Assembly (NCBI GenBank): GCA_029263415.1
Contig: JAJCXN010000051.1
Location: 186,001-250,000 of the forward strand
Direction of reading: 5' to 3'
Origin: Acidobacteriota bacterium
GTDB lineage: Bacteria; Acidobacteriota; Thermoanaerobaculia; Multivoradales; Multivoraceae
Length of the DNA: 64,000 nucleotides
Part shown: piece after piece, positions 2,593 to 5,428 of the stretch
Layout of the letters: every line of letters starts with the position of its first letter
Numbering within the stretch: the stretch's first letter is position 1
Program-made: the position numbers and the translations under genes
The notes under the pieces: generated by a model
Databases searched by the model: none
What the model was told of the DNA's origin: nothing
The model's input: only the letters and a program-made list of their open reading frames with translations

Positions 2593-2665
2593 CATCCGGC
2601 GCATGCTACGTCAAGATGAGCCTCCACCTATCTTGAGCCCGTTCGTTCAATCTCCGGAGATACCG

Positions 2666-3226
2666 ATGACCGACTCGCTTCGCATTGCGCAGATCGACCC
2701 AGCGATGGCTGAGCCGCGCGTCAAAGCCGTGCTCGAAGCCCAACGCAAGCAATGGGGAGCACCCTTGAACAACCACCTGGTGTACGCCCGCCTGCCAGAA
2801 CTGTTCAAGGGGGCCCGCGGCATGTGGTCGGCGCTCGCTGCCTGCGGCGGGCTTGACCCTACGCTGGTTGCTCTGCTCAATCGCAGAGTGGCTAGTCTCA
2901 ATCAGTGCCCCTTCTGACAGGACATCAACGCTGCCGTGGGTAGCGCACGTGGCCTCTCAGAGGAGAAAATCTCTGCACTCGACGACTATGCGACCAACGC
3001 ACTTTACAGCGCGGCGGAACGGAGCGCTCTTGCCGCGGCGGATGCGATCACACTCACGAACGACGACCTGTCCGACCAGCAGTTCGCCTCGTTGCGCGAG
3101 CACTTTTGCGACAACACCATCATTGAGCTGATTGCCGTGATCGCGTGGGAGAACGCCTCGAGCAAGTTCAATCGCGCGCTCCGCGTTCCCTCGCAACAAC
3201 TGTGGAAGAGACCAGCCAATGACTGA
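2666..3226 (+). CDS. AhpD/carboxymuconolactone decarboxylase-like protein with in-frame UGA, probable selenoprotein
   Basis: Read through the TGA at 2915-2917, this is one 186-residue protein of the AhpD/CMD fold. Residues 72-90 read N-R-R-V-A-S-L-N-Q-C-P-F-[UGA]-Q-D-I-N-A-A, matching the family's active-site CxxC helix with the second Cys (residue 84) replaced by UGA. The 102 residues after the UGA keep the family pattern (helix ending ERSALAAADAITL, then DDLSDQQFASLREHF and IIELIAVIAWENASSKFNRAL) with no frameshift. AhpD-like selenoproteins with CxxU motifs are known. A hairpin sits at the spacing expected for a bacterial SECIS element. The ATG at 2666 has GGAGA about eight bases upstream. 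The stop overlaps the start of the next gene by eight bases. A Cys-to-stop mutation is the alternative, and no sel genes are in the window to decide. Confidence 0.78.
2929..2945 (+). promoter_or_regulatory. SECIS-like hairpin downstream of in-frame UGA
   Basis: A seven-base-pair stem (2929-2935 with 2939-2945, one G-U pair) closes a GUG loop that begins 19 bases after the UGA at 2915-2917. Bacterial SECIS elements, recognised by SelB, are short hairpins directly after the UGA. Their apical loop usually has a G in its first two positions and lies about 16-37 bases downstream. The fit is good but was judged by eye. Confidence 0.6.
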
Positions 3227-4238
3227 GCAAAGACTACCTCTCGGCCTCGCACTGCGCTTGTGGGATCGCACCACGACGTGGGACCAGGTGGTTGAGATCG
3301 TTCGCTTTGCTGATGAGCTCGGCTACGACCAAGTCTCGGTGACCGAGTCCTTCGGCCGCGACGGGTTCTCCTTGGCAGATCGGCTGCTGCACGCAACAAG
3401 CAACATCAAGGTTTGCGTTGGCATCGCGAACGTGTTCTCCCGCACTCCGGCGCTGCTCGCAATGACGGCCGCCACGTTGGACGAAGCCTCAGGCGGTCGC
3501 TTCGTCCTCGGGCTCGGAGCCAGCACACCAAACTTGGTGGAAGGGCTTCACGGGCTCACTTTCAAGGAGCCCATGCAACGCATGCGCGAGACCATCGAGC
3601 TGACTCGGAAGGTCTGGGCACGCGACCCCTCTCGATATGACGGCAAGATCTTCCGCGCCGGTGGGGTCAAGCTGGGATTCGCCCCGCTACGAGAGCGGAT
3701 CCCCATCTGGATGGGTTCATTGCTACCGCACAGCTTGGCCCTATGCGGAGAACTCGCAGACGGCTGGACGCCCACCATGTCTCCTAAGCAATGCCTCGGT
3801 CCAGGCGCTGAACGCATCGCGGTTGGAGCTGCGCGGATTGAGCGCGACCCGGGCGAAGTGATGATCGCGCCCAACCTGCAGGTATCCGTTGGTGATCCAG
3901 CCGAGGTCTTAGCGTCCCTCAAGTTCTCGATCGCGATCTACTATGGCCCGCCCAATAGCCCTTACGCCAAGGCTGCGATCGGGCTTGGCTTCCGAGACGA
4001 AGTGGAGGCGGTTCAGCAGGCCTACGCAAATGGCGGCTCGAAAGCGGCGGCAGCGGCAACTGCGGACCACTTCGCATTGAGCATTGCGATCACCGGATCG
4101 GAAGCTGACTGTCGGGCTGAGATCGACAGTCTCCTATCAGCGAACGCGGATCAGGTTCTGGTCGCCCTGCCCGCGCCTACGCGGGCTGAGTGCGAGCCGA
4201 TTCTCGAGGGCATCATTCCTGGGCGGCTACGTCAATGA
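3219..4238 (+). CDS. LLM-class flavin-dependent oxidoreductase
   Basis: This 339-residue luciferase-like monooxygenase fold (TIM barrel) protein would use FMN or F420 in the cytoplasm. Typical features are the N-terminal strand LGLALRLWDR, the segment FADELGYDQVSVTES, the block ATLDEASGGRFVLGLGAS, and RMRETIELTRKVW. These resemble the F420-dependent reductase branch of the family more than true luciferases, but the cofactor is not provable here. The ATG at 3219 overlaps the end of the AhpD-like gene by eight bases, and its TGA overlaps the ATG of the acyl-CoA dehydrogenase gene by four, so the three are translationally coupled. The substrate is unknown. Confidence 0.9.
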   Translation: MTEQRLPLGLALRLWDRTTTWDQVVEIVRFADELGYDQVSVTESFGRDGFSLADRLLHATSNIKVCVGIANVFSRTPALLAMTAATLDEASGGRFVLGLGASTPNLVEGLHGLTFKEPMQRMRETIELTRKVWARDPSRYDGKIFRAGGVKLGFAPLRERIPIWMGSLLPHSLALCGELADGWTPTMSPKQCLGPGAERIAVGAARIERDPGEVMIAPNLQVSVGDPAEVLASLKFSIAIYYGPPNSPYAKAAIGLGFRDEVEAVQQAYANGGSKAAAAATADHFALSIAITGSEADCRAEIDSLLSANADQVLVALPAPTRAECEPILEGIIPGRLRQ

Positions 4239-5428
4239 TCAGCCCTGGCATCAAGAAGCTCTCGTTCGAACAGTACCTCGACACCATTCGCGCCTTCACC
4301 GACTCTGAGTTGATTCCCGGTGAGAAGGAGATGGTCACAGCCGGAGCGGTGCCTGAACGATTGGTGGATCGCATGATCGAACTCGGCTTGTTTGGCATCA
4401 CGTTGCCAAGCGAATGGGGCGGCCTAGGTTGGAGCATGGAGCAACAAGTTTTGCTCACCTTCGAGTTCACGCGCGCTTCCTGTGTCTATCGATCGCGCTT
4501 CTCCACCACCATCGGACTGTCCTCGCAGATCATCCTCGACCACGGCACCGACCTTCAGCGCGAGCTGTACTTGAGCAAGATGGCCAACGGTCGTTGCGTC
4601 ACGTCGTTCGCGCTCACCGAAGAACACGCCGGCTCCGATGCGGGCTCAGTCCGCACCACCGCGATCAAGGACGGCAATGACTACGTGCTTAACGGTTCCA
4701 AGCGCTACATCACCAATGGCGCATGGGCTGACCTGTTGATCGTCTTCGCCCGCACCAACCCAGAGATCCAAGGCGGACGCGGCACCTCGGCCATCCTGGT
4801 CGACGCCAAGTGGCCTGGGGTCAGCGCGACCCTGCCAACAATCATGAACGGCCACGAGGCTGGCCCGGTGGCAGAGCTTTCCTTCACCGATGTGCGAGTT
4901 CCGGCTGCCAACCTGATCGGTACGCACGAGGGAACCGGTCTGAGGCTTGCGCTGCGGGGAATCAATCACGCACGCACCCATGTCGCTGCAACGGCTGTGG
5001 GCCAAGCCACCCGCATTCTGCATGAAGCGACGCGGCACGCACGAACGCGAGAACAGTTCGGTCAGCCGCTCGCGGATTTTGGCGCGGTCGAGAGCTTGCT
5101 CGGGCAGAGCTACGCTGAGCTTGAAGCCGGTCGTGCGCTGGTGCTCGACTGCGCTCGCGCCTTTGACGCGGCAACCGGGCCCGGCAACGACACTGCCGCG
5201 CCGCCGGCGATTCCCGCGGCACGGATCGCCGCAGCCAAACTGTTCTGCACCGAAATGGCGTCTCGCGTTGCCGATCGAGCGCTACAGATCTTGGGCGGTG
5301 AGGGCATCGTCGGCGATCACCCGGTACCGCGAATGTGGCGGGACGTTCGAACCTTGCGCATCTACGAAGGTGCCTCTCAAGTCCACGAGCGTAATCTCGC
5401 TCGCCACCTCAAGAAGACCGTTTTGTAA
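4235..5428 (+). CDS. Acyl-CoA dehydrogenase family protein
   Basis: This 397-residue FAD enzyme would catalyse alpha,beta-dehydrogenation of an acyl-CoA and pass electrons to ETF. The FAD/substrate motif is present as VTSFALTEEHAGSDAGS, followed by GSKRYITNGAWADLLIVF. The C-terminal domain has ARTREQFGQPLADFGAVE and RALQILGGEGIV. The catalytic-base region is LRIYEGASQVHERNLARHL, which keeps the Glu of the usual I-Y-E-G-x-x-x motif. The length is normal. The start at 4235 is chosen because its ATGA overlaps the stop of the preceding gene; a GTG at 4190 would add 15 residues inside that gene. It is the third gene of the 2666-5830 operon. Confidence 0.95.
   Translation: MISPGIKKLSFEQYLDTIRAFTDSELIPGEKEMVTAGAVPERLVDRMIELGLFGITLPSEWGGLGWSMEQQVLLTFEFTRASCVYRSRFSTTIGLSSQIILDHGTDLQRELYLSKMANGRCVTSFALTEEHAGSDAGSVRTTAIKDGNDYVLNGSKRYITNGAWADLLIVFARTNPEIQGGRGTSAILVDAKWPGVSATLPTIMNGHEAGPVAELSFTDVRVPAANLIGTHEGTGLRLALRGINHARTHVAATAVGQATRILHEATRHARTREQFGQPLADFGAVESLLGQSYAELEAGRALVLDCARAFDAATGPGNDTAAPPAIPAARIAAAKLFCTEMASRVADRALQILGGEGIVGDHPVPRMWRDVRTLRIYEGASQVHERNLARHLKKTVL

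Follow-up and report, generated by a model that had tools for sequence, protein, structure and literature searches.

The gene at positions 2666–3226 on the forward strand of the window—the whole 64,000-nucleotide stretch of Acidobacteriota DNA analyzed here—very probably encodes an AhpD-like (CMD, COG2128/YciW-related) bacterial selenoprotein, a reading to which we assign a probability of about 0.95. When TGA is translated as selenocysteine (Sec, U), the product comprises 186 residues including Sec84, and 102 of them follow U84, in agreement with the frame, coordinates, and residue numbers of the initial annotation. The single in-frame interruption is the TGA at 2915–2917. As that annotation had also recognized, this codon occupies the position of the second Cys in the CxxC motif of the AhpD/CMD family, forming the redox motif C81-P-F-U84 (2906–2917, forward strand); the column contains only TGA, TGC, or TGT in the relatives, and the frame is conserved beyond it. 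From the computed frame, Sec/Cys exchange, hairpin, machinery, and fold, we infer the Sec insertion itself.

A reading frame interrupted by one UGA codon

The ATG at 2666 is preceded by a likely Shine-Dalgarno sequence, GGAGA (2656–2660, forward strand), identified by direct reading of the sequence. The Pfam CMD model PF02627 matches residues 44–126 with 42.1 bits (cut-off 23), and the match spans the UGA. Under the standard code, the mechanical ORF list breaks the gene into two pieces (2555–2917 and 2936–3226), the fate foreseen for it under automated annotation. The stop codon, TGA at 3224–3226, shares eight bases with the next gene on the same strand, as previously noted; this gene begins with the ATG at 3219 and encodes an LLM-class (luciferase-like) oxidoreductase (3219–4238; PF00296, 204.5 bits). 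Its best NCBIfam model is TIGR03559, with 197.7 bits, below the model's cut-off of 335. The third gene, also on the forward strand, encodes an acyl-CoA dehydrogenase (4235–5428; PF00441/PF02770/PF02771 in a Pfam run on 4238–5425). The mechanical ORF list places its start at a GTG (4190); if the alternative ATG at 4235 is the start, it overlaps the stop of the LLM gene by four bases (ATGA). The three genes thus overlap end to start and look like one transcription unit. Since the selenoprotein and LLM genes both terminate in an ordinary TGA, this codon also serves as a stop here.

Is the genome equipped to read UGA as selenocysteine? The initial annotation had proposed a search for selA, selB, selC (tRNA-Sec), and selD, and all four are present in the window's genome (6.89 Mb, 60 contigs, 99.2% complete), each above its cut-off: selA with 457.7 bits, selB with 329 bits, tRNA-Sec with 71.1 bits (ARAGORN also calls SeC(tca)), and selD with 249.2 bits over joined matches. 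The SelD of this genome (L018/L019, G000:C23:163515-164576) shares a single long frame with a preceding pyridine nucleotide-disulphide oxidoreductase domain, an arrangement that resembles the Ndh-SelD fusions described in the accessible text of PMC2398784.

In two CMD paralogues of the window's genome, L068 (G000:C5:107758) and L069 (G000:C38:73106), TGA likewise occupies the column of U84 within the frame (CHYU-TRAH and CHYU-ITHH, respectively). No other CMD genes above the Pfam cut-off were found in this genome, and the same search found no Cys-form CMD gene; the genome therefore seems to hold three CMD selenoproteins. Both paralogues retain the Glu, Tyr, and His residues discussed below, and pass the TIGR01926 model with 151.8 and 121.4 bits.

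We searched 396 genomes from the phylum using the NCBIfam model NF053654 and obtained matches in 182 of them. Among the matches listed, 39 bear an in-frame stop (a hand count that includes the window's gene); all of them carry one TGA, and none is interrupted by TAA or TAG. We also searched the class with a profile of the tight group of relatives, which 31 of 148 genomes match at 1e-15; two of these matches, in G246 and G401, additionally contain TAA or TAG, where the match reaches the gene's own end. We took two further relatives from named contigs, the two loci through which the sampling extends beyond the phylum. An alignment with Cys homologues, suggested in the initial annotation, was built from 59 distinct sequences including the window's; the genome of the window supplied three. 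It displays the Sec/Cys exchange: the U column holds 36 TGA against 23 Cys codons (17 TGC and 6 TGT), and nothing else.

All ten closest relatives, which belong to other families or to the two separately named contigs, have TGA at the identical column. In seven of these ten, identity to the window protein after the UGA is at least as high as before it (63/102 after and 45/80 before in L027, for example). In the other three, L022 (44/99 after and 48/79 before), L023 (46/99 and 32/45), and L074 (56/102 and 48/80), identity is lower after the UGA than before it.

Among the matches listed, 35 genomes besides the window's have one that bears TGA (the TGA position was inspected in 20 of them), and selA is above the cut-off in 34 of these 35, as compared to 13 of 30 genomes with stop-free matches, chosen from the upper part of the match list (Fisher p 9e-7). 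The TGA-relative genome in which selA was not found, G104, is a fragmented draft (91% complete, 750 contigs). This comparison excludes eight tested genomes from the same family as the window's, each with selA, their matches being outside those listed. Within that family (f1), no other member is found among the 31 of 148 class genomes matching at E≤1e-15. The distribution is patchy, and horizontal transfer is a possible origin of the gene.

A hairpin immediately downstream of the UGA

A putative bacterial SECIS-like hairpin lies at 2929–2945 on the forward strand, as indicated by folding, covariation, and synonymous constraint. The arms CGCUGCC (2929–2935) and GGUAGCG (2939–2945) form a 7-bp stem that closes the GUG apical loop (2936–2938), giving a downstream hairpin with a small, G-containing loop, as in bacterial SECIS elements. 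The stem length and the loop given in the initial annotation are correct, and the spacing requires a shift: the stem starts 11 nucleotides after the UGA, and it is the loop that starts 18 nucleotides after it, at the 19th base. The published bSECIS model has a UGA-to-loop spacing of about 16–37 nucleotides. In the RNA fold that had been proposed as a check, the hairpin is predicted, but the window sequence alone folds only moderately better than its shuffles (z of −2.2, −2.5, and −2.2 for three stretches, and −0.97 for the shortest). Rfam gives no match within the window at the gathering level, and at E≤10 the one match near the hairpin is irrelevant and belongs to no SECIS family.

Single-sequence folding was discarded as a test of the register, as the best hairpins differed among the relatives; the register was therefore tested through a comparison anchored at the UGA. 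Over all 36 TGA genes, 4.31 of the 7 pairs can form, and over 34 genes (without L068 and L069) 4.41 of 7, versus 3.86 in arm swaps. This signal is diluted because two registers, +14 and +16, are mixed. After this first look, we divided the TGA genes by the residue preceding U into C-x-F-U genes (19) and C-x-Y-U genes (15 in this analysis, with the divergent own-genome paralogues omitted). At +14, 6.37 of 7 pairs form in the C-x-F-U genes (arm swaps, 5.52), and at +16, 6.93 of 7 in the C-x-Y-U genes (arm swaps, 5.16). None of 20,000 arm swaps attains the observed pairing in either Sec group, also when duplicates are removed, and at least six pairs form in 18/19 and 15/15 genes, respectively. 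Nine of the 19 C-x-F-U genes lack pair 7 of the stem (G-G or C-A instead), which does no more than widen the loop. The Sec-branch gene L024 forms only five of the seven pairs, and L068 and L069 form three each at +16, but both have a different hairpin of their own.

The 23 Cys relatives form only 2.91 and 2.57 of the 7 pairs in the two registers, no better than their own swaps, with one of them, L045, capable of six pairs at the same place. Since the sequences are related and the register split was made post hoc, the swap test does not give a strict probability, and the contrast with the Cys relatives is the better control. At the level of sequence comparison, the hairpin is far beyond chance once the relatives are considered. 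Moreover, the strongest synonymous constraint of the gene coincides with the hairpin: in the 11 tight genes (the window's and its ten closest relatives), 362 of the 479 same-residue pairs at U+1 to U+10 use the identical codon, as compared to 1955 of 4699 elsewhere, and among 184 windows the two that rank highest begin at U and U+1.

We propose that SelB delivers Sec-tRNA at the UGA, aided by this hairpin, and that the ribosomes would then read 102 more codons to the stop overlapping the next gene. The initial annotation had favored selenocysteine over decay, and the full set of Sec genes, the TGA/Cys-only column, and the covarying hairpin uphold this choice. A Cys codon mutated to TGA in a decaying pseudogene, or a miscalled base, would produce the same interruption, and a close copy that could provide an independent read of this base was found in no second genome by the phylum and class searches or in the named contigs. 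The ten closest relatives nevertheless share the codon and its column across other families or the two named contigs, TAA and TAG are absent as interruptions from the 39 stop-bearing matches listed, the downstream half is conserved, and the hairpin is constrained, which makes decay or error very improbable. Decoding of the UGA as another amino acid, by a code change, near-cognate readthrough, or a suppressor, is more improbable still: the identity of the residue cannot be read from protein data alone, but this gene and the next both end with UGA, the genome has a complete Sec set with tRNA-Sec, the relatives exchange TGA for Cys codons only, and a SECIS-like hairpin follows the UGA.

Predicted fold and the missing proton relay

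The selenoprotein is predicted to be helical and AhpD-like, with Cys81 and Sec84 placed where a helix begins. The AlphaFold model (mean pLDDT 95.7; 26-row alignment; Sec entered as Cys) has the helical AhpD-like fold, in which the CxxC motif is present as CxxU (C81/U84). A fold search matched 37 PDB chains at E≤0.001, comprising Bmp8, PA0269, AhpD, peroxidase-related, and CMD entries. Bmp8 leads (6ohj, TM 0.82), followed by PA0269 (2ijc, TM 0.70/0.88), while M. tuberculosis AhpD is a weak fold match (E 0.5 or worse; 1gu9, E 0.8). The sequence profile matched 26 distinct PDB sequences at 0.01, headed by the uncharacterised peroxidase-related protein 2pfx. Against TIGR01926 (peroxidase-related enzyme), the window protein scores 33.8 bits, below the cut-off of 81.8.

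How does the active site compare with that of AhpD? According to the accessible text of PMC3141380, the AhpD relay consists of Glu118, Cys130, His132, Cys133, and His137, and the two Cys residues and the last His are invariant across the structures compared there. The window protein shares the two-helix CxxC core of the AhpD/PA0269 thiol peroxidases, and its predicted fold matches PA0269. In contrast, Glu118, His132/Tyr50, and His137/His55 are replaced by Ala69, Phe83, and Asn88, respectively, and the second Cys by Sec, so that the relay of Glu, His/Tyr, and His is missing.

The same loss extends over the whole C-x-F-U group. Grouping by the residue before Sec fixes Phe or Tyr there by definition, and leaves the Glu and last His positions free. 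In the 19 Phe-type Sec genes, the Glu position is occupied by Ala (11), Ser (3), Val (2), Gln (2), or Cys (1), and the last His position by Asn (16), Gly (2), or Val (1); neither Glu nor His occurs. The Tyr-type Sec genes keep both residues in 17 of 17 cases. The 23 Cys genes have Glu in 16 and His in four at the first position, and His in 20, Thr in two, and Asn in one at the last; the two Thr residues, with a His one residue earlier, probably reflect an alignment shift.

In the tree, the 19 C-x-F-U Sec genes group together (support 89/83), and with the Cys gene L030 as their sister the support is 99/95; all 20 genes of this branch lack the Glu and the final His. L030 (G343:C65:19946-20440) is a Cys form, CAFCVDIN, that shares the relay-less residues with the Sec branch, and its genome has selA. 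It could represent either a return to Cys or the state before Sec. The relay loss in this Cys form means that the loss does not strictly need Sec; in the sampled gene sequences, Sec and relay loss go together. The pKa of a selenol is low, and this property may substitute for the Glu/His relay absent from the branch.

Proposed function and relation to known selenoproteins

As the most likely scheme, to which we would give about even odds, the Sec84 selenolate would attack an oxidised substrate, either a peroxide or some other compound, Cys81 would resolve the product as a Cys81–Sec84 selenenylsulfide, and a cellular thiol reductant would recycle the enzyme; the chemistry, substrate, and reductant are all conjectural here. 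Whether the chemistry is peroxidase-like with Sec as the nucleophile, or the protein has a different redox job, is a nearly balanced question; doubt about a peroxidase role comes from the missing Glu and His of the AhpD relay and from the weak fold match to M. tuberculosis AhpD itself.

The different job could be that of a disulfide/selenenylsulfide adaptor, a Bmp8-like reductive dehalogenase, or a partner of the acyl-CoA/LLM enzymes, and we hold such a non-peroxidase role to be a serious contender, somewhat short of an even chance; this estimate covers the job only, the Sec reading being common to both explanations. The relay Glu and the final His are gone in all 19 C-x-F-U genes, and among solved structures Bmp8 (6ohj/6ohi, titled debrominase) ranks first by E-value; we take it to be a reductive dehalogenase/debrominase, and our literature search found no paper on it. 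However, the identity to Bmp8 is just about 20%, and the second protein in the fold ranking, PA0269, has weak peroxidase activity, as stated in the accessible text of PMC3141380. The operon with the LLM and acyl-CoA dehydrogenase genes likewise speaks for a non-peroxidase job, as do the thiolase and acyl-CoA dehydrogenase flanking one looser relative, but this neighborhood is not shared by the ten closest relatives.

The pairing with LLM and acyl-CoA dehydrogenase genes was highlighted in the initial annotation as a context not known to be described. It holds in the window, and among the 18 other C-x-F-U loci surveyed, none of the ten closest relatives has a gene of either kind nearby within the available DNA (several contigs are short, and that of L023 begins inside the gene, so that the absence there is partial); isolated neighbors of these kinds occur in two of the eight looser relatives. 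The neighbor lists consist of mechanical ORFs. Operon conservation as a general feature was accordingly rejected for the ten closest relatives, and the operon is a hint rather than a rule. In L060 (G395; L060:3496-5724), a thiolase, a C-x-F-U selenoprotein, and an acyl-CoA dehydrogenase follow in series on one strand, the last 20 bases downstream of the selenoprotein gene; this row is a possible second link of the branch to acyl-CoA metabolism. In L103 (G461), a weak LLM match (E 4e-9) lies nearby on the opposite strand. At the strict threshold of E≤1e-60, none of the order's 71 other genomes contains a match to the window's LLM protein.

AhpD-like CxxU proteins are known in other bacteria, as the initial annotation stated, and have been listed in selenoproteome papers since 2005. 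In the accessible portions of these papers, the 2005 Sargasso Sea selenoproteome lists an AhpD-like family (COG2128 YciW, 27 sequences) and a separate CMD selenoprotein family (4 sequences; PMC1088965), another 2005 survey includes a carboxymuconolactone decarboxylase selenoprotein candidate in Geobacter (PMC1242214), and the GOS selenoproteins include AhpD-like 1 (299) and AhpD-like 2 (70) (PMC2398784). AhpD-like selenoproteins also appear in the accessible parts of reviews of 2022 and 2026 (PMC9312934, PMC13188914). With the Sargasso AhpD-like selenoprotein ("AhpD-like 1"), as far as the available text of PMC1088965 describes it, the window protein shares the CMD/AhpD family, a CxxU motif with Sec second, a bacterial SECIS element with a small G-containing loop, and the existence of Cys homologues. 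The best model by far is NF053654 (GroundWater_YciW, "YciW-related (seleno)protein"; E 1.2e-77, residues 6–182 of 186). The window protein scores 259.8 bits, below the curated cut-off of 310, which is exceeded by L024 (324.0 bits) and L025 (319.7 bits) of the same clade. As the AhpD-like CxxU kind is already listed and NF053654 exists, the window gene is a new, divergent member. It adds to the family a protein that scores under the cut-off of the existing NCBI model, and provides a clean example of standard-code ORF finding breaking a selenoprotein in two.

In the article passages covered by our literature search, we found no description of a relay-less, almost Sec-only C-x-F-U branch, a pattern seen here in one sampled phylum and two contigs. 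We tentatively suggest, as a speculation less likely than not, that this branch is an almost Sec-only, selenium-dependent AhpD subfamily in which Sec has replaced the acid-base relay as well as the Cys, perhaps with a shift to a different substrate (an oxidant, or a dehalogenation, tied to acyl-CoA metabolism). The absence of the relay, together with the near-complete use of Sec, offers a testable case for why selenocysteine persists: if Sec makes the relay unnecessary, reverting to Cys should be costly. The branch would then be a natural case in which selenium renders catalytic residues dispensable, and Sec is thereby locked in.
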